From Gossypium raimondii (Eukaryota > Streptophyta > Magnoliopsida > Malvales > Malvaceae): DNA of 64,000 nucleotides. Of this stretch, positions 2,038 to 50,465 are shown piece by piece. The stretch's first letter is position 1. Each line of letters opens with the position of its first letter. Both the position numbers and the translations under genes were made by a program. The notes under the pieces were generated by a model. That model saw only the letters and a list, made by a program, of their open reading frames with translations, ran no database searches and was not told where the DNA came from. Location: contig NC_068575.1 in the NCBI RefSeq assembly GCF_025698545.1, positions 47,749,980-47,813,979 of the forward strand, read 5' to 3'.

Positions 2038-3445
2038 TAATATAATAAATATTGGTTAAAGATATATTATTTGGAGTTTGTTTGATGAAGTTAAAAACTA
2101 TAAGGGTTTTGTTTTTAATTAAAATCTTGATTATTTATTGTTTGAGTGTGTTTTTTCGTATTATAAATTATAGTTGTAATTGGATGTTAACTATGTGAAA
2201 TTTATTTTACAAGATATATATATATGATTAAAACTCATAATTTTATTTAAAATTGAAATAGAAAATGAAAATTTAAGTAACAACTAAATATTAATATTTT
2301 TATACATATTCGATAATCTAAAATAAAACAATGTGATTGCTCTTTTCTATAAAAAGTGTAGAAAATAATAAATAGATAAGAATTACTTAATAATTTTATT
2401 TATTTTAATATTATATTATTTATAAAAACTTTACGTTTAAAATTTGATTTTTATTTAGAATAAAGTGAATTGTTTAAATTTTAAGGATAGAATAAAAAAT
2501 AATTTAAAATCTATATTTGCTAAACAATCTAATTATATTTCATAATTAATTTTAAGTAATATATCAAGTAATTTTATAACTTAAATTTTTAATATTTAAT
2601 TTTTCAATTGATTTAGTAAACAAATATTTGAGAATGAGATCATAATTATTGATGAAGAGAATATTTTCAATAATATTTATTATTAAGATATGTTTGCGTT
2701 AATTGTGTAATAATAAAAATTTTAATTAATAATTTTTAAAATGATAATATTTATTGATTCATTCTTCTACAATTAAATAGAGTATTTAATATTTTCTTTC
2801 AAGTAACATATAAATGTAGATGTTCATTTTGAAGAGTGGGAGGACAAATCCTCTGATTTTTGCATCTATACTGCATATTATGATTCATTTATGAAAAACA
2901 AATGAAGAATTAATACTTAAACTAAAGTAAGGGTAATGTTATCTTAACATTGTTGCTAGTGTAACTGAAATGTGCTTATTCTTCAATTTAATGATTGGAT
3001 AAGGGTTATATTCTTTATAAATTAATTTATTGTTAAATTATTAAAATTAATACTTGAAATGATTTTTTTGAGTAATTTGTGTCTTCATGTTATTCGAAAT
3101 ATTTTTAAACATTAATTTTAATTAAAAATAAAGTTGTTGAAGGTGTATTACAAATGTGAATCACATAAAAGAATAGTTGCAAATTTTGGACATGGTCTCA
3201 AAGTAGAATTGTAAAATAATCAAAACATTTATTTCCTTTCTAAATGTCACATAAACAATTAAAGATTTTGTCCGCAGACATAAAATGTATAAAGGTAGTG
3301 ACATCATTTTAATCTCTAGATGAATAACATTTAAGTCCCTAGCCAATGATAAATCATCTTTAAAAAGCTACAATTCAGCCGCACACTATTGATTTTTGGG
3401 AGATGTTAATAAGCTCCAATTATTCAGTAACCAGAATAGTTTTTT
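2038..3445. other. AT-rich intergenic stretch
   Basis: Very AT-rich sequence with poly-A/T tracts. I see no reading frame with recognisable similarity, no RNA gene and no clear transposon ends. Confidence 0.5.
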
Positions 3446-13632: not shown

Positions 13633-16600
13633 TTACAACTCCTTTTTTTAAAAGGAATGTCGTGTTTTTATTTTCTGGTTCTTCAGTGCATATGAAGCAG
13701 AAGAAGCAGGAACAAGACATAAAAAATAGCTCAAAAAAAGTAACCGTTGCAAGGACTTTTGTCCGATTGTCCCCACTAAACATTTTAGCCCCCTTTTTTT
13801 TTTACAATGATATGCCTCAATTATCCCTGTCCTTTTATTCTCTTTCCCGTTATGCCCTCGATGTTGTTTTCCTTTTAGTTCTTGGATGGAGGTTAAAAGC
13901 ATCAAGAGAATTCCTTATATTGTATTTCGGTTTTTTCACTCAAAAAAACCAATAAATTAATTCTTATACATTTTAAAATATGAAATTTATTCTCTTTATT
14001 AAATTTTATTTATTACTAATTTGATCACTCAACAATAGTTAACATTTTATTTTAATTTTTTAAAAATTCTTAACAATAATTCTAAAAATTTAAATTCATC
14101 CACTTCAATAAAATTATAATTTTGTTACCGTTAAATTACAATCAAACTAAATAAACAACACGTTTGTAGTAAACAAAATCTTTTGATTTTGCATCTCTTT
14201 TGGCAATGAAGAAGAAGATGAAGACAATGAGCTCATGAAAATTCCATTTTTTTATATTTTATTTCTTCTAAACTGAAAACATTATTTTCTAAAATTTTAA
14301 AACTCATGAAGTCCTTGTTTAGAACCAATAAATTTATATTAAAATTCACAACTTAGAAATTGTCAAACCCAAAGAATCGGGTATTAAACAATAAAATCTT
14401 CGAATAGAAAAGTTTGTAATAGTATGGGATGCGAAAATGAGTAACCAAAATCTTATAACAATAATTACACACCACCAAGAGATACAAAAGCATAGAAAAT
14501 ATGAAAATGAGTATTCACTAAAGTAGAAGAAAGTAAATATTAAATAGTTTTTATATACCTTTTAGTTGAAAGCATGGATGATGAAGATGAAGTTGAACAT
14601 TAACAAAAACATTAAAAATTTAAAAGTGAGTAATCAAAACTTTTAATTGATTTTTTTTTTGCTTCAATCAAGTTTTTATTTATTTATAGTTTCAATAAAG
14701 CATGCGAAAACTTTTTGATTTTTTGGGTTTTGTATAATAGGAAGAAAGTCCTACAAAAGATGATAGTTTTGGGTTTCGACTTAGAAGTTTGATAATAAAA
14801 AAAACATATACATATTTTTAAAAATTTTATTTATAATTTTATTTTTAAAATATTTTAACCTAATTGTTAATATTTTTGATAATATATATATTTTATTTTT
14901 AGAATTATTATTAAGAAAAAATGTAAAAAATTAAAATAATATTTTAGACCAAAATAATAATTAACCATTTAAATTAACATTTAATATATAAAATTTAATA
15001 CTAAATTTGATGATGATTTCTTAAATTTGTTTGACCACTCCTATGCAATATACATGATAAATATGGACGTTGAATAATAGAGATGACTTCCAATAAAATA
15101 ATAATTGTCTTCGAACTTAAATTGGTATGGGCAAGAAAAGGGTAGCCATTAATGAAGGAGGTCTGCATACATATATGTTAACGTGGCGGTGGCCTGCAAA
15201 ATTAGAGTTATGTGTTTTGAGATATTCGGTGACGAGTGGTAAGAGTTATTTCAATGAAATAACGGAGGGGTTTAGTGTGGGGTGTTTATAATTTAGTTAA
15301 AATTAAATTAATTGATTTAATTTGATTAATTAATTGGTGATTTAGTTCGGTTGAAGGGTAGTTAATGGTTTTTTTATTATTATAATTTTTATTGATTAAT
15401 TCGGTTTAAAATTGAGTAATTAATCGAATTAATTAATTAACCAAAATAAATAATATATATTATATATAATTGTTAACTTTTTGTTTGATTGTTAACTTTC
15501 AAGATTTATGTAGTATTTCTGTTAATAATAGTTAAGAAAAAGCCTATTTTTTTCTCTAAGTTGTTTGTTTCTTATATTTTGTTTTGCTCAGCGACGATGT
15601 CAGCTTTTAGGCTGGTTATCACCCATCTTTTTCCTTTCCCATCAACCCTTTCTTTCTTTATTTTTTCATTCACTGCACATGTTTTCTTTCTTTTTAGTTT
15701 GTAGATCTATTTTGTGGGTATCTTTGTTGTCTTCACAAGTTGTGATGGCCACATGACGATGCATGTTGTTCGTTAAAACTCCACCAGTCACCAGTAGTTT
15801 TTCTTCGAAAGTCAGTGACTTTTTGTCAACTTTTTAATCTGTTTTTGTTTTGAGAGTATTCTAGAATAATAAATTATTTCACGTGTCGATTTAGACCCGT
15901 GTTGTCTTAAGTTTTATATGTTTTTTGTTTATTTTTCCATTGTTTAATAAGTCTTCAATTTTAGCAGTTTTTGTCTGTTCTTGTAGCACGTTTTTTAGTC
16001 TTGCTTATGCATGTAATACTAGTTTTACAAATGATTTTAGGGATGATTTTATTGTCATCCTCTCTAGTTCGGTGAATGCTCGATTCTTTTGTTGATTTTG
16101 CTCACCGCTTTGGATCATCCAGGGTTGATTTCTTTATCGTATTAAGTGCTTGCAATCACTCTAGATATGTCGTACTTGAGTTGTGATAAAGCCAATTGTC
16201 AATGTGTTATAATGTTCTATTGATGCTGAGGATAAAGTCTTTGTTATGTTGATGGAGCTTGTCTTTCACCATCTATGACGAGTGTTTGTTATTTTTTTTT
16301 CTTTGAATTGCATAGTTCCATTCATTGAATGAATTAATTTACCTTTAAAAAATAGATTTATGTAGAGTTTCTAATATCTTATTTGTTGTTTTCACCTTCA
16401 TTTAAAGTTTTTCTAAACTATTTAAGAAAATGAATCTTAGTAATGTATTTTTTATATGTTTTATACTTATTTTAATCTAAAGACAAAAAATATAATTTTT
16501 GACCGAATTAACCAAAATATTTTAGTTTGATTAATGTATTTGAAGAAAACTTCGATTCAATTAACAATAATATTTTTTTTTACATTTTAAATAATTCAAT

Positions 16601-16711
16601 TCGAATATTAACTAAACCTATTGTTTCAACGCTCCTAATAAATATATTAATAAGGATAGGCTTCCCTCAATATTTATGTTGGCCGTTGGGAGCTCTTTGA
16701 TTGGTTTGAGT
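13633..16711. other. Intergenic stretch with a degraded hAT-like element
   Basis: AT-rich, no supported gene. Around 15276 (TGGGGTGTTTATAATTTAG) and 16632 (inward TTAGGAGCGTTGAAACAATAG) are facing sequences with AATTAA-rich, GGTTAA-like flanks. They resemble the ends of the hAT MITE at 59034, so 15276-16632 may be an old, longer member. No target duplication was found. Confidence 0.35.
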
Positions 16712-17619
16712 TAGGCTCCGTTCTTCTTTGCGTTAAAAAGTCCTTTTCTCTTAAAAGGAACGAAGAACGACCTCCATTTTCTCAAAAAATTCACCATCTA
16801 AAACGCCATTTTCTCCAGATGAAACTGAAAATTTCACCATCTAAAAAGCTTGAAGTGCTTTTGGTTGATAAATGACCAAATTAACCCGTCTTCTACCCCT
16901 TGGAAAAACGTTCTTTCCTCTGTTGTGAAAGTTCTATACCCATTTTTTTCACATTTTCGCTGTGAAAGCTCCTTCTTGTTCTTTGTTCCTCTTCCGCAGG
17001 TGAGTTCGTTTTCTTCTTCTTCTCTTCAATTATTAATTATGCTTTGTTTTTATTTACTTTTTAATTCTGGCTTTTGTGCCTCTTTTTCTTTACTGCTTTA
17101 TGCCTCTACTGCTGCTTTGCTCTGCCTCTTTTGTTTTGTGCCTCTTTTGCTCACTTTGTAACTCTTCCAAACTATTTTAGTTGATAAGAATAGAAGAAAT
17201 ATAGACTAAATCAAAATTCGTATCCAAATTCCATATCATTGCTGAACTTTCTGTATCTTTTGTATTTAAAAGTTCTGATGATGTTCTTTTTAATTGTTTC
17301 TAGGGTTTAGCTTTACGATAAGAAACATTACTAATTACTCGAATTCAAGCTCTCCAATCTATTGTTGATATTTCGATAACGAAAATTAATTATATAAATG
17401 ATCATAAAATCACATTCGATGGTTGGATTTTGCAATGAATCTCTGAATATTTAACAATTATTGTTATTTTTGAATGAATGAAACGTACTTTCTTTCTTAT
17501 GCATGAAAAATTGTTGGATTTTTTGGATTTTTTTTTAATTTTAGTAGGAAAAAAGTGTGATTAATTCAGTTAAGTGATATTGCCATTAGACAGATAGCTC
17601 TTTGTAGTTGCTTATCTAA

Positions 17620-17917
17620 ATGTTGCCACCTCCAGAAATCATGGAATAAAAGCTTGCTGCACAGCATGTGGAAATGAAGAGACTTGGTACAGAAAACCAG
17701 AGAACTGCTGCTACCCATGGGACATTGAGACAGGAACTTGCTGCTGCACAGCATGAGTTGTAGATCTTGCATGCTCAGATAGGAGCTGTAACATCTGAAA
17801 GAGAACAACAAATGAGGAGCCTTACGGATAAAATAGCTAAGATGGAAACAGAACTGCAAGCAGCTGAGCCTGTTAAGGTAGAGTTGCAGCAGGCACACTC
17901 TGATGCTCAGAATTTGG
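17620..17917 (+). pseudogene. FLL2: FLX-LIKE 2 (FLC-expressor family) exon fragment
   Basis: Reads MLPPPEIME*KLAAQHVEMK...THGTLRQELAAAQHEL*ILHAQIGAVTSEREQQMRSL...METELQAAEPVKVELQQAHSDAQNLV, where * marks stops (TAA at 17647, TAG at 17761). The coiled-coil pattern matches FLOWERING LOCUS C EXPRESSOR-LIKE 2, a nuclear coiled-coil protein of the FRIGIDA-related flowering pathway. Only one exon's worth is present, ending near the expected splice junction, and the rest of the gene is absent. Both stops replace glutamine codons by a C-to-T change. It may have been captured by the surrounding TIR element together with upstream leader and intron sequence. Not expected to make a functional protein. 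Confidence 0.85.
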
Positions 17918-18994
17918 TGTTCTATGTTATAAGCTGGACATTGTTATAATAGAATGTTCTTTCAATTTTAAAACTGTATGAGCAAAATGAAATGGACTAG
18001 GATATTGCAAATGAGTAATCACTTTGATAATAAGTATTATTTAATGAAATCTTCTACATATTCCTTAATCTTTTTGTCATTGAGTTTAAGTGGATTATAG
18101 GTTCAATTGTATTTATTGTTCTAGAGGCTACACTAGGTGTCAACTTTAGCACGATGACTTGTTTAATTATTGGTTATATTCTTATTTCTTTTAATGCTTG
18201 CTTGCTCTTGATTACCAATGCTTGCTTGCTTTTTGTTTACACATTGTCCAACTTAGAACGGGTGTGGATCTTTATCAGAAATGAAAAAGCAAAAGTCTTC
18301 TTGAATTAAAATATATATATTATCAGTGCAAGAAAAGCATCAGTATTCACACTGTGAAGCACTTGACTGTAGCAAAACAGACACTGATGGTTTAGCACCC
18401 TTTCTCTTTCAATTTTTTTTTTCAAATGGTAAATAAATGTGTAACAACAGTGCATTGTTACAGCTAGTTTTGCTTTATGGTGATGTTTTCATTATAGTGA
18501 CCATGAAAGCAGTACCATGTGGAATATTTTATCACAGTAAAGATAAACTGCAGCCAGAGTTTTATCAAGTCTTTCCAAAGCAGAGAGGTTTTCACACTTG
18601 CAGTTTCTGACTGTATTTAGGATTGGATTTCTTTTTAGATGGTAGATGTATGGTATTGTGGAGTGACTCTTTACGTTATGTTGGTATGTGCATGTTTGTA
18701 CGTGTGTTTTCTTATTTTTATTTTGTGCTTCTTTTTTCTTATCTTGTGCTGAAGCGTGATCTTGTAAACTGTCTATTCCTATGGAGTTATGTTTGGTCAT
18801 AATCCGTAAAGAAACTTTCTTGCTAAATGAGGAAAAAGTATGAAGCAAGGTATTTTTATTTCGCTACATATGAAGTGGAATTGCCTTTCTAGGGGTGGCT
18901 GTTTGTATACATTTCATCTGTTCATCAGCATCAATAAGCCTGCTTTTCCATTTCCTCTCTCTTTATTACTCAATTTCAACTTGTGTTTTCACAG

Positions 18995-19309
18995 AGGATC
19001 AGCATCAAAGATATCAAGAGCCATCCGTGGTTTTTGAAGAACTTGCCCAGAGAACTGACAGAGGCAGCTCAAGCTACTTACTACAAGAAAGAAAACCCGA
19101 CGTTCTCCCTCCAAAATGTTGATGAAATCATGAAAATAGTTGAAGAGGCCAAAGTTGCCCCTAGAGTATCATGGCCTATCGGAGGCTTTGGCTAGGGTGG
19201 AGAAGAAGATGGGGATGCAAAGGAAGAAGATACAGAAGAAGACGAAGAAGATGAGTACAAGAAAACGGTAAAAGAGGTACATGCCAGTGGAGAAATTCAC
19301 GTCTCTTAA
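18995..19309 (+). pseudogene. SnRK2 protein kinase C-terminal exon fragment
   Basis: Preceded by an intact acceptor (TTTTCACAG, 18986-18994), the frame reads RISIKDIKSHPWFLKNLPRE...YYKKENPTFSLQNVDEIMKI...SWPIGGFG*GGEEDGDAKEED...EDEYKKTVKEVHASGEIHVS, ending at TAA 19307-19309. This is the end of the kinase domain, the SnRK2 box and the acidic C-terminal patch, probably of a group I SnRK2 (SRK2A/SnRK2.4-like). SnRK2s act in osmotic-stress signalling. TAG at 19193 replaces the conserved Trp (TGG to TAG) before the acidic patch. The catalytic domain is missing. It lies about 1.1 kb after the FLL2 fragment on the same strand, although the two genes have no functional link. Not a working kinase. 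Confidence 0.9.
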
Positions 19310-21100
19310 GGAAAAATGAGAGTAATATATGGTTTCCAAATGTTGGAGCTTTGGTGTCTTTTAGTGCTTACATATGTTCTTATAAATATGATGTCAGTTT
19401 TTTGCTATTGGACCTGGGTGTTGAATAAACAACCTGTAAATTAGTGTGTTTTGGACAAGTAGTTTGTGCAGTCTCTAATATGATTTTGTAGGGTGTATTG
19501 GTACTGATTAGGTAGGTGAAAACTACAAGGATTTGAACCCTGCCTAGTTGGTAAGTTGGGTAAATGTAGTGGTCTACACTTTTTAGAGTAAAATAGAAGA
19601 TCTGTCATCTGTGAGTCCTATAAGTTTGATTTCTTCCATCATAAAGTGGTATGTTATGTCTAGAGTTGCGACTCTATAAAATTTAAGAAATTACCAATAT
19701 AATTTTTAAGTAACATTTTCATTATTACTACTACTACTTTGGCCTTGTTTCTGCATCTTTCATGGTGTCTTCAACTAGGTTTTGGTTATGTTTGATTCTT
19801 TGATGTTGAAAACATGGATCCGATCTTTCCTTAAAAAGAAATATTAGATTTGAGAACTTGGAACACAACACAATTATATGCTAAAAATATATAATATGAT
19901 GATCACCATAAAAGAAAGGGGTAGTATATGTTGCCTCTCTAATAGGTCTATTTATACCCACTAATTGGTATCTATTTTATTTTTTTGATTTAGAACTTTG
20001 CATTTCCTTTGGATGCTCAACACATATGACATGCTGCAAAATTGTTTCTTGCCAATGATTTATTTTATGTTCTTATGAACAAAGTTCGACTCTGATCTTT
20101 GATGCAGTTTTATGTCATTATCATAAAATTTAGGCAGAACTTAAGAACTATTTCTTTGTTTATGAGGCTACTTTGTTAGTGGCTTATTGGCAATGATCTT
20201 TTCTGGATGTGTATTATTCAACCATCTATTTATACACTTTTTGTACTTTATTTACAAAAATAGCAGTATGTTACTCCTCGGTAGACACTTTAGTTCCATT
20301 CTTGTTCATCTTAAAACAATATGCAATGTTAATGATGTGGACTGTCCACTAATTTGGCATATTGCTTGGTTCTTGAGACCCGTTATTTAAATGATTGGAA
20401 TTGAAGAATTCATCCTAACAATCTTCTTTCCATGAAATATTCTTTTTTGTGTTCTTCATCAGACAATCTCGACTTTCATTTTCATATGCTTATCAAATAT
20501 AAGTATTGTATTAACCAAATCATTTATTGAATATAACCAAATCATTTTCATATGCTTATCAAATATAGCATCTAGTTTAATGAATTCACTTTAAATTGTA
20601 AATGCTATTGACAAATTTTTAGTATTTATATTTGGTATATAAATATTATCCCTTTTAAAATTTTAATCCAAATATATGTAATATTTTATAATAAAATAAT
20701 ACAAATGTGTTAAAAGCATTAATTAAAAATAAAAATAATTTTTATAATAATACAATCGTGTCAATATCTAATTACAAATATTTAATTTTATATTTAAATA
20801 TTTAAATATAGTTTATATATTCTAATTAAATTTTATAATTAATATTAATTACTTAGAAATATTTAAAATTAATATTATATATTAAAATATTAACAATAAG
20901 CTATAATAAATTATTTTTTTATATTTTTGCTAAAATATCATAATATTAACTAATTTGAACATTATTTAAATACATATTTGTTACTTTATAATCTCATGTC
21001 TAAAATGGACATTTTATTCTTCAAAAGCACTTTTTGACAGCAACGCCAAACACTCAAATTTCTCAAAAGCACTTCTGAAAAGCACTTCTCAAAAGTAATA
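19310..21100. other. Non-coding right part of the candidate Pack element
   Basis: The first few hundred bases may be SnRK2 3' UTR and flank. From about 20500 the sequence is AT-rich with a duplicated cattttcatatgcttatcaaata (about 20476-20500 and 20546-20570). No gene seen. Confidence 0.4.
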
Positions 21101-21599
21101 AAGAACTGGCCCTTAATATCTTTGGTTTAGTAGGATTATATCTGTTCATCTTATTTTTTTGACAATCACAAGTTTTATTGTTTGGCTAATTAATACATAC
21201 TTTTTGTCCAACTCAAGTTTTTCATTTTTTTTATTTTAAAGAATTTTAATTTTTAGTAAATATATATCTTTTAGTACAGTTATGTGGTTTTTCTTTACAT
21301 ATTTCTAAAATTTACTTTTTAGTCTTTATATTATATTATAATATAATATATTTAATTTTCGTATGATATAAAATACATAAAAATAAAAAGCAACATATTA
21401 TAAAATTGAAAATGGGACAGGTCGAGTCTAAATGTTAAAATTTGTGCCTTTAGTGTAGTGATTTCATTATGACTATACTTGTAATTTATTCAAAATGATT
21501 GAATAAAAAACTACCGCATGCTTATTTAATTAAGTTTTATATGAATGTCCTCGATGGTTATTAGAAGCAAAATGTATAAAAAAATATTAAGTAATTAAT

Positions 21600-32291: not shown

Positions 32292-32364
32292 GAATCATTT
32301 GGATGAAGCTGGGAAAATGAACTAAGCTCTCTTTTAAGCAGGGAGGAAAGTAGCAAGTTCAGTG

Positions 32365-33216
32365 ATGGGGAACTATAGTTTACCCAATCTCATTGTCCTG
32401 CTTCTGAACTTGGGAGCTTTGCTTGCTTCTTTTGCTTGTCCTCTATGTCCCCGTCCAACTCCTCCACCCAACTGTCCTCCAACTTTCCCACCCAAACATC
32501 CTCCCATTGTGAAGCCCCCATTTCACCCCAAACCACCAAAACATCCGCCTCATCATCCTCCCAACCCTCCCGTCGTAAAGCCTCCTCATGTACCCAAACC
32601 TCCTGTCGTTAATCCCCCACCACCTCACTATCCTAAACCCCCAGTCATTTCACCACCACCAAAGCCTCCCGTCTACCCCAGTCCTCCTATTGTAAAGCCG
32701 CCAGCGCAAAAGCCTCCCGTCTACCCCAGTCCTCCCATTGTGAAGCCGCCAGTTCCAAAGCCTCCCGTCTACCCCAGTCCTCCCATTGTGAAGCCGCCAG
32801 TTCCAAAGCCTCCTGTATACCCAAGTCCTCCCATTGTGAAGCCGCCAACACCAACGCCTCCTGTATACCCAAGTCCTCCCGTTGTGAAGCCACCTCCAGT
32901 GGAGACCCCTTGTCCACCACCACCACCTGTGCTATATCCACCACCCCCGGCACAGCAAACATGCCCCATTGACACTCTCAAGCTAGGCGCATGTGTTGAT
33001 GTGTTAGGTGGCTTAGTGCACATTGGTATCGGCAGCAGCGCCAAGGACACATGTTGCCCAGTGCTTCAAGGGTTGCTAGACTTGGATGCTGCTATCTGTC
33101 TTTGTACCACAATCAAGGCCAAGCTTTTAAACATCAATATCATAATACCAATTGGCCTTCAGGTCCTCATCGACTGTGGCAAGACTCCACCTCCAGGATT
33201 CCAGTGTCCAGCATAA
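32365..33216 (+). CDS. Hybrid proline-rich protein with eight-cysteine domain (cell wall)
   Basis: Secreted cell-wall or plasma-membrane-associated HyPRP, 283 residues, no introns. A signal peptide occupies about residues 1-24 (MGNYSLPNLIVLLLNLGALL...). Residues about 30-195 are Pro-rich with KPP, HPP and YPSPP motifs, including five 16-residue units KPPVYPSPPIVKPP(VP/AQ/TP) encoded by 48-bp repeats (32662-32901). The C-terminal domain has eight cysteines at 200, 210, 230, 231, 245, 247, 271 and 281, spaced C-x9-C-x19-CC-x13-C-x1-C-x23-C-x9-C, the 8CM fold related to lipid-transfer proteins. The start is ATG 32365; an upstream in-frame GTG (32362) is not a plausible plant start. Family members are often developmentally or stress regulated; that is family knowledge, not seen here. 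Confidence 0.93.
   Translation: MGNYSLPNLIVLLLNLGALLASFACPLCPRPTPPPNCPPTFPPKHPPIVKPPFHPKPPKHPPHHPPNPPVVKPPHVPKPPVVNPPPPHYPKPPVISPPPKPPVYPSPPIVKPPAQKPPVYPSPPIVKPPVPKPPVYPSPPIVKPPVPKPPVYPSPPIVKPPTPTPPVYPSPPVVKPPPVETPCPPPPPVLYPPPPAQQTCPIDTLKLGACVDVLGGLVHIGIGSSAKDTCCPVLQGLLDLDAAICLCTTIKAKLLNINIIIPIGLQVLIDCGKTPPPGFQCPA
32662..32901 (+). repeat. 48-bp coding minisatellite, five units
   Basis: Five consecutive 48-bp units start at 32662, 32710, 32758, 32806 and 32854, each encoding a 16-residue KPPVYPSPP-type repeat. Units 2 and 3 are nearly identical, which points to recent duplication. Unit 5 is the most diverged. Confidence 0.9.
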
Positions 33217-43030: not shown

Positions 43031-43652
43031 TGTAAGTATATTTGTATAGTTGAAACCAAAATCAAAATTTCATTTATATATTAAATCAAAATTAAATTTA
43101 TATTTATACAATTGCACCAAAATAAAATTTTGAAATCACATTCTACATCAAATCAAAATTTAATGTAATTTTAAGATTTATTTGAAATTTGGTATAATTA
43201 AAACAATATTTTGTTACATTTAAATTTTAAGGCAAAACAAAAGACTTTGGTCCGTACGTCCCCTTCCCAATTCCGACCACTAATTTTAGAACAAAAAAAC
43301 ACATACAAGTTGACCCCATTCTCACTTCTTCCGACCTCCGTTGCCTCCCTCTCCTTCTTCTCCCCTGTCATTTTCCTTCTCTACGCTACTATCACTTATT
43401 TTAATTATTATTACATGGTCCTGGTTTAATGTCTTTTCGATTTATTGTCGCCATTTCCATTTGTTGAGCTAAACTATTATTTATTGGCCTCTCTTGGATC
43501 TCATTCATTCAGCTTTAAAATATAAATTCTTCTAAATGCATAATTAATAAATTCACGTACGTCCACCGTCTGTCCCTCCTTCCCTCCTTTCTCTCTTAAA
43601 GACTTATGAGCTTGTTTTTCAGGGTATTTTCTTTTTTGTGTTTGATTCAGCA

Positions 43653-44909
43653 ATGGCTTACCAGTACCAGCCATGTTTTTTCCTTCTTTTTCTGCTGTTT
43701 TCCGTCAATGCGTCTGTTCTAGCATTTCAGCAACGACCCAAGATCAGCGCCGTTGATCTGGCGGCGCTGTCAGCGATCAAAGACAGTCTGACAGACATTC
43801 CAGGCTCAAGATTCTTCTCCACTTGGGACTTCACCGCACCAGATCCTTGCTCCTCATTCACCGGCGTCACCTGCGGTTTCAACGACCGAGTCACCATTCT
43901 GTCGCTCGGCACTGGCCTTTCCGACTCGCCTGGCCTCGCTGGCTCCCTCTCCCCCGCTCTTTCCAACCTTACCCAGCTAACCCAACTCATCCTCTTCCCT
44001 GGTCTCGTCACCGGTCCCATCCCCCCCCAACTGGGTCAACTCACTAGTCTTCGAGTCATTTCCTTGACCAACAACCGCTTAACAGGACCCATACCACCCT
44101 CCTTTTCTACTCTCCCCTTCTTGCACACTCTGGATCTGAGTTCAAACCGGCTCACCGGGTCCATCCCGCCAGGCCTCACGAAGCTTCCATCTTTAAAAGT
44201 CATGGTGTTGAGCTGGAACGAGTTAACAGGGGAGTTACCCAGAACAGTGTCGGCGCAGTTATTACACTTAGATTTGAAGAAGAACAAGATCAGCGGACCG
44301 TTGCCAAGGTTACCGTCAACTGTCCGTTACTTGTCAGTGTCGGAGAACTGGATGTGGGGCCCACTCAAGGCCCTGGAATCGCTATCCGAGTTAGTGTACC
44401 TGGACGTTAGCATGAACCAATTCAGTGGGCCCATCCCGTCTTCACTCTTCTTAAACCCCTCCCTCACTTCACTGTTTTTGCAACGGAACAATTTATCGGG
44501 TGGCCTCCCATCATCAATCAAGATGGACCCCACCTTCCAATCCTACGGCGGCAAGGGATCCATCGTGGACTTGAGCCATAACTTCATCACGGGGGATATA
44601 ACCCCCTTCTTGGCTGGGGTGGAGACTCTCTTCTTGAACAATAACCATCTCACTGGGTCTGTACCTGAGGAGTACGTGAAAAGCGTGTACGACGGCACCA
44701 CCAAAACTTTGTATTTGCAGCATAACTATCTATCCGGATTCCCATTACCTCAAGGTTCCACTCTGCCTGATACCGTCTCCTTGTGCTTGTCCTATAATTG
44801 CATGGTGCCGCCCGTTGGGATATCAGCCTGCCCGGCCAGTGCCGGAAGCCAGCCCTCCAGGCCGCAATCGCAATGTTCCGTATTCACCCATCGTGGCTCC
44901 ACCAACTGA
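43653..44909 (+). CDS. Secreted leucine-rich-repeat protein (receptor-like, no kinase)
   Basis: Intronless, 418 residues. Signal peptide at about 1-24 (MAYQYQPCFFLLFLLFSVNA...), then an LRR N-terminal cap with the DPCSSFTGVTC pair of cysteines, and about ten plant-type LRRs (LxxLxLxxNxLTGxIPxx) over residues 75-370. The C-terminal cap has SLCLSYNCMVPP and a final Cys near QC. There is no transmembrane helix, GPI-like tail or kinase, so it is probably apoplastic. From memory it resembles the Arabidopsis At4g03010/At1g03440 group, which shares the SLC...YNCMVPPV ending; no function is established there that I can cite. The start is ATG 43653 in a good context (AGCAATGGC); an in-frame GTG at 43638 is not credible. 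The coding part is markedly GC-richer than its surroundings. Confidence 0.9.
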   Translation: MAYQYQPCFFLLFLLFSVNASVLAFQQRPKISAVDLAALSAIKDSLTDIPGSRFFSTWDFTAPDPCSSFTGVTCGFNDRVTILSLGTGLSDSPGLAGSLSPALSNLTQLTQLILFPGLVTGPIPPQLGQLTSLRVISLTNNRLTGPIPPSFSTLPFLHTLDLSSNRLTGSIPPGLTKLPSLKVMVLSWNELTGELPRTVSAQLLHLDLKKNKISGPLPRLPSTVRYLSVSENWMWGPLKALESLSELVYLDVSMNQFSGPIPSSLFLNPSLTSLFLQRNNLSGGLPSSIKMDPTFQSYGGKGSIVDLSHNFITGDITPFLAGVETLFLNNNHLTGSVPEEYVKSVYDGTTKTLYLQHNYLSGFPLPQGSTLPDTVSLCLSYNCMVPPVGISACPASAGSQPSRPQSQCSVFTHRGSTN

Positions 44910-46304: not shown

Positions 46305-50363
<4,059 letters not shown>

Positions 50364-50465
50364 TGCAAAGGATGAAAACGCCAAAACCGCAAACAAAAAC
50401 TTAAAAAAGAACACTTAAGGATGAATTGGGAACAAAAATCAGTTGGAGTTAGAACGAGAGAGAGA

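Follow-up and report, generated by a model that had tools for sequence, protein, structure and literature searches.

A Pack-type PIF/Harbinger transposon with pieces of an FLX-like and an SnRK2 gene in Gossypium raimondii

Gene-fragment capture by DNA transposons is known from Pack-MULEs, which, like CACTA elements such as Tgm-Express, belong to superfamilies with other ends and other duplication lengths than the PIF/Harbinger element described here. This element carries pieces of an FLX-like gene and an SnRK2 gene and lies in a 64,000-nucleotide stretch of Gossypium raimondii DNA (C11:47749980-47813979), which we call the window and to which positions refer unless another locus is named. Loci with L labels are other places of the same genome, extracted for comparison; the genome searched comprised 750,779,957 bases. 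The soybean CACTA element Tgm-Express resembles the window element as a DNA transposon that captured gene fragments (PMC1947982). Pack-PIF elements have been described from maize and rice (Gisby and Catoni 2022, PMC8903248) and, like the cotton element, are of the PIF type, have mostly TTA or TAA duplications and hold pieces of host genes. In Zm-Pack-PIF cluster 18 of maize, four elements combine fragments of two genes; their mean length is 535 bp, and the two fragments are of 163 and 58 bp (PMC8903248). The cotton Pack copies that retain both ends are about 2.4-4.5 kb long, and their cargo can exceed 2 kb, come from two or three genes and include non-coding DNA. Pifvine-3 of grapevine is likewise a PIF family with a long variable 5' region containing host exons and introns; it bears a transposase, whereas the window copy keeps only the last transposase codons (Benjak et al. 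2008, PMC2528002). Gene capture by PIF elements is already known from maize, rice and grapevine, and a uniform sense orientation of the cargo is a feature that we did not find discussed in the accessible parts of these papers.

Ends, target sites and transposase-bearing relatives

The window contains a complete non-autonomous DNA transposon of 4,399 bp (16714-21112) between two copies of TTA. A preliminary description of the locus had given its right limit correctly, as 21115 with the TTA included, and its left limit one base off the actual 16711. The parts of the element other than its cargo are the following.

16711..16713, no strand: left target-site duplication TTA, read from the sequence and matching the right copy
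16714..16726, + strand: left terminal inverted repeat GGCTCCGTTCTTC, recognised with a family-derived terminus pattern; 21 left ends were aligned, that of the transposase-bearing L039 among them
16714..17223, + strand: left subterminal region, 91-95% identical to L009-L011 and L023-L025 and less so to other copies
16997..17005, + strand: splice-donor-like site CAGGTGAGT, from the left-end alignment; its use in splicing is presumed
20010..20565, + strand: right internal region, common to the SnRK2-carrying copies and L017
20566..20595, + strand: relic of the end of a transposase gene, IASSLMNSL and stop, identical to the end of the L039 transposase reading frame (read by eye)
20683..21112, + strand: conserved right end; 22 of the 23 other copies compared share it at 90-97% identity, and it is absent from L023
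21100..21112, - strand: right terminal inverted repeat, reverse complement GGGCCAGTTCTTT, with nine of 13 letters equal to the left repeat
21113..21115, no strand: right target-site duplication TTA, read from the sequence

The left-terminus pattern, which was drawn from the family itself, matches the window once, against 0.00 matches expected. The left subterminal region of the window copy lacks about 20 bp found in most relatives. The alignment of the left and right ends (360 and 280 bp) scored 63.5, which is not above random pairs of windows (mean 66.8; shuffled sequences 56.4, standard deviation 7.2). Therefore, the likeness of the ends to each other does not prove an element; the proof is their recurrence. 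The right-terminus pattern, with at most one mismatch, occurs at 425 sites in the genome, and the reversed pattern used as a control at none. A genome search with the whole element gave at least 108 matches, a lower bound because 40 of 1,908 candidates were scored. Grouped by eye, these matches fall into 34 other places on contigs up to C13, 24 of which were extracted, and one of these (L012) is a parent gene of the cargo. L041 3451-4026 is an element of 0.6 kb whose ends are of this kind and whose flanks are TAA; it is probably a shortened member of the family.

Equal 3-bp flanks were present in 17 of the 20 copies with both ends located, against a chance expectation of about 0.3-0.4. These 20 copies consist of a set of 15 (13 with equal flanks), together with L036, L039, L040 and L041 (equal) and L043 (unequal); for L040, the left limit was set by eye. 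In the remaining copies examined, one end was missing, unrecognised or beyond the extracted stretch. The repeated triplet is TAA in 11 copies (L013, L016, L019, L020, L025, L027, L028, L033, L036, L039 and L041) and TTA in three (the window copy, L009 and L014), together 14 of the 17, in keeping with the 3-bp, mostly TTA or TAA, duplication of PIF/Harbinger elements; the others are TGA in L011, GTA in L010 and CTA in L040. For 17 copies, the flanks were searched for among the extracted sequences. Two of these copies, L025 and L027, gave an alignment in which the joined flanks run over the insertion point in a related sequence that is unoccupied and has a single target copy. The target at the L027 empty site is TAG in place of TAA, one changed letter. 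This site is itself in the window, just upstream of the element.

15610..16360, - strand, outside the element: repeat that is an unoccupied relative of the L027 insertion site, spanning the insertion point with one target copy

The transposase-bearing relatives were found by eye, by comparison of the listed right-terminus matches (C1 to C9) with the listed DDE_Tnp_4 matches. In two pairs among the matches listed, the terminus and the transposase match share a strand and are separated by about 820 bp; these pairs lead to L039 and L040. Both loci combine the ends of the family with DDE_Tnp_4 (PF13359; E values 1.2e-11 and 4e-12, profile positions 75-158). L039 has family ends on both sides and TAA flanks, and its right end is about 90-94% identical to those of most Pack copies examined and 83% identical to that of L014. 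L038 contains a related coding sequence (92.6% identity over 2,576 bp), and its left end was not found. The open reading frames (ORFs) of the window copy contain no transposase beyond the last nine codons and stop. Because the duplications are of 3 bp and DDE_Tnp_4 is encoded by relatives that share the ends, the family belongs to PIF/Harbinger and not to hAT. The window copy, like several others, holds pieces of host genes between family ends, and of the transposase it has no more than these last codons. We are highly confident that the window element is a non-autonomous Pack-type PIF/Harbinger transposon.

Captured gene pieces and the route of capture

The preliminary description had recognised an FLX-like and an SnRK2 fragment on the same strand between inverted ends and had proposed a non-autonomous Pack-type transposon with fragments of two unlinked genes, and both statements hold. 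The two parents, whose location it had suggested as a check, lie on other chromosomes: an FLX-like gene on C7 (L032), the piece of which was named FLX-LIKE 2 in that description, and an SnRK2 gene on C12 (L012). The single exons reported for each gene are present, and the pieces are larger than single exons and include non-coding DNA of both parents.

17224..17623, + strand: FLX-like fragment 1, from upstream of the coding exon, 94.0% identical to the C7 parent
17620..17921, + strand: FLX-like fragment 2, coding exon with in-frame stops, 96.4% identical to the C7 parent
17920..18121, + strand: FLX-like fragment 3, out of order (upstream of fragment 2 in the parent), 93.6% identical
18122..18443, + strand: piece X, for which no source gene was recognised, present in other FLX-type copies
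18445..18693, + strand: SnRK2 fragment a (parent L012 3373-3621), 97.6% identical; its join with piece X recurs in L026
18683..20009, + strand: SnRK2 fragment b, 92.8% identical to L012 3905-5231 of the parent; it takes in 3' flank and the last coding exon, which is interrupted by a premature stop

In the element, the FLX-like pieces follow the parental coordinates 1051-1440, 2876-3177 and 2361-2563. Piece X has 28 genome matches, many of them in known family copies, and no source gene was recognised among them, several of the places being unexamined. The first coding exon of the C7 parent lies within a stop-free open frame of 204 codons, and the C12 parent contains kinase exons. Pfam matches of the FLX version in L010 are all below cut-off and mostly to coiled-coil families; the copy of the last SnRK2 exon in the element matches SnRK2 chains in the PDB, with SAPK10 best at 3.6e-9. 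The FLX piece contains one TAG and one TAA in frame, and the SnRK2 exon has a stop after GGFG. With the frames interrupted in this way, a chimeric protein is not expected. Such copies can pass for FLX-like or SnRK2 genes in annotation. The identity to the parents of 92.8-97.6% by block, with one 287-bp SnRK2 stretch at 86.2%, points, if a general plant mutation rate is applied, to captures some millions of years old, as an order of magnitude only.

Other copies with the same ends and different cargo, also suggested as a check, were found. Pieces of both parents are present in the window copy, L009, L010, L011, L013 and L026; as judged by matches to the two parents, L023, L024, L025, L027, L028 and L033 have FLX pieces only, and L015, L016, L018, L019, L020, L021 and L022 SnRK2 pieces only, as does L014 by a 52-bp match. 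L017, L036, L037 and L038 contain pieces of neither. L026, on C3, has the same X/SnRK2 join as the window copy; therefore, the chimera moved after it had formed. A third piece lies between the FLX and SnRK2 pieces in L009-L011, and in L010 it is from PDH E1 (3.3e-15). Relatives carry further genes, including RNase P p30, PP2A B55 and a TFIIB repeat, and the family carries pieces of at least a dozen genes. With both parents, transposase-bearing relatives and empty sites in one genome, the shuffling of genes by PIF/Harbinger elements is well resolved in this case.

The element kept its left terminus, a leader with the splice-donor-like site and, on the right, about 550 bp in which the last transposase codons lie; DNA copied from host genes took the place of its middle. 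Based on these structures, a route of capture can be proposed. A gap within the element may have been repaired incorrectly, the repair copying an unrelated template and switching at microhomology, so that the fragments entered. A further exchange probably joined FLX-type and SnRK2-type elements, and the transposase of the same-ended relatives would move the window element in trans. The out-of-order pieces fit gap repair with template switches, as does the microhomology read by eye at the joins: ATGT between FLX pieces 1 and 2, GGT between the SnRK2 pieces and ATTTC where SnRK2 meets the right end. We lean slightly towards gap repair as the way of capture.

The alternative argued for maize Pack-PIF (PMC8903248) is that two neighbouring insertions are mobilised together with the DNA between them, and that the chimera is a fusion of two tandem elements of the same family. 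The window copy does resemble the left half of an FLX-type copy and the right half of an SnRK2-type copy with one join. Moreover, a 78-bp AT-rich match to the right end (73%, E 0.001) lies 176 bp past the SnRK2 boundary in the parent; it would favour fusion and weighs against gap repair at the capture step, and we take it for a chance match. A second AT-rich match to the right end in the parents extends over 61 bp at 75%. The termini, searched with at most two mismatches in 6.5 and 9 kb of the parents, gave four matches, none at a captured boundary, and two of the four are one place read on both strands inside the last SnRK2 exon. This absence of a terminus at the boundaries, the out-of-order and partly duplicated FLX-like pieces, the microhomology and the third gene piece in the middle of L009-L011 all argue against fusion, which we consider rather unlikely.

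Points against the PIF/Harbinger assignment and other element types

Three observations weigh against the PIF/Harbinger assignment. Three of the 20 two-ended copies (L024, L026 and L043) have unequal flanks. The empty sites, of the kind that the preliminary description had suggested seeking, are those of L025 and L027, other copies of the family. PIF/Harbinger elements usually encode, besides the transposase, a protein that contains a Myb/SANT-like domain; in L039, the ORF that precedes the transposase (L039 4007-4594) gave no Pfam match.

The preliminary description had called the ends hAT-like. In favour of a Pack-hAT element are the subterminal AGTGCTTTTG-type repeats, which are like those of other plant elements. 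No 8-bp duplication abuts the ends; 17 of 20 copies have 3 bp instead, the empty sites have one target copy, and the relatives that share the ends encode DDE_Tnp_4, which together refute an hAT origin and make it highly improbable. Pack-MULEs have duplications of about 9 bp and long inverted repeats; here the inverted repeat is of about 13 bp, with nine letters equal, and the duplication of 3 bp. Helitrons have neither inverted repeats nor a duplication, and the window element has inverted ends and a duplication. That two decayed gene remnants came together by chance or local duplication, with no transposon involved, would explain the decayed reading frames only and is refuted, to a still smaller residual probability than hAT, by the defined, recurrent ends with duplications, the join shared with the C3 copy and the parents on C7 and C12.

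Orientation of the cargo and neighbouring features

All 12 cargo genes that could be located in the family are in the sense orientation relative to the lost transposase: FLX-like, SnRK2, RNase P p30, PP2A B55, CBS, TFIIB repeat, NAD_binding_8, leucine-rich repeat (LRR), PDH E1, DUF7733, RRP5 and oxysterol-binding. RNase P p30 is represented by three exons in order on the sense strand; its Pfam match and that of LRR are below the family cut-off. PP2A B55 was identified from one sense ORF compared with the PDB, in a comparison of sense ORFs only. DUF7733, RRP5 and the oxysterol-binding gene come from copies chosen blind to their cargo (L043 and L044); in this sample, four of nine chosen places were extracted and two scanned for cargo, L041 being the 0.6-kb element and L042 having no left end found. 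For this uniform outcome, 12 of 12, a sign test yields a probability of about 0.0005, to be read with the reservation that some genes may have entered together and that short exons are easily missed.

At E<=0.003, the 100 antisense ORFs from 11 copies matched no Pfam family, whereas the 105 sense ORFs matched 12. The pool held 121 sense and 109 antisense ORFs from 12 copies, and this comparison leaves out L023 (10 sense, nine antisense) and six of the 13 sense ORFs of L026. The 12 families include two LRR models; four others, of coiled-coil type, are ascribed to the FLX piece. No locus was traced for K_trans_C and MoeA_C, also from sense ORFs, and they are not counted among the 12 genes. In the whole antisense frames of L014, L016, L018, L036, L043 and L044, the only match was a weak one to DUF7480 (L014, E 0.0075, below cut-off). 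The sense frames of L020, L010, L013 and L019 were scanned whole, and their antisense strands were covered as ORFs. In L018 (1102-3956, + strand), the copy with the TFIIB piece, there is a weak match to BatA (1.3e-4, below cut-off). Neither DUF7480 nor the sense match to BatA enters the orientation count.

We tentatively propose, with somewhat more doubt than belief, that the family takes in or keeps host pieces only when they run in the direction of its own transposase transcript, with the left-end leader and its splice-donor-like site upstream of the cargo and the end of the transposase gene downstream. If this proposal is true, either capture would be linked to the element's own transcription, or pieces captured in antisense would be purged because they would silence the source gene, and the family would offer a direct test of whether transcription guides cut-and-paste capture or selection removes antisense cargo. 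Transcription would run from the left end through the cargo. The motif GGTGAGT, a donor-like site present at or near the equivalent position in 10 of the 21 aligned left ends, including L039 (counted by eye), would suit transcription through sense cargo. The preliminary description had suggested that a transcript across both pieces could make small RNAs against the parents; because the cargo is uniformly sense, RNA transcribed from the left end would have the sense and not the antisense polarity of the parental genes. A limited search of the literature, in the parts accessible, found nothing on Pack-PIF elements in cotton or on cargo orientation in Pack-PIF elements, and the accessible text of the maize and rice study discusses the orientation of neighbouring insertions, not of cargo (PMC8903248).

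Elsewhere in the window, an exon on the - strand (49767-50411) matches coproporphyrinogen III oxidase (9.6e-26), and a proline-rich protein with a hydrophobic seed/lipid-transfer domain (4.5e-29) is encoded on the + strand (32338-33216). An open frame of 452 codons with leucine-rich repeats is located at 43551-44909 on the + strand.

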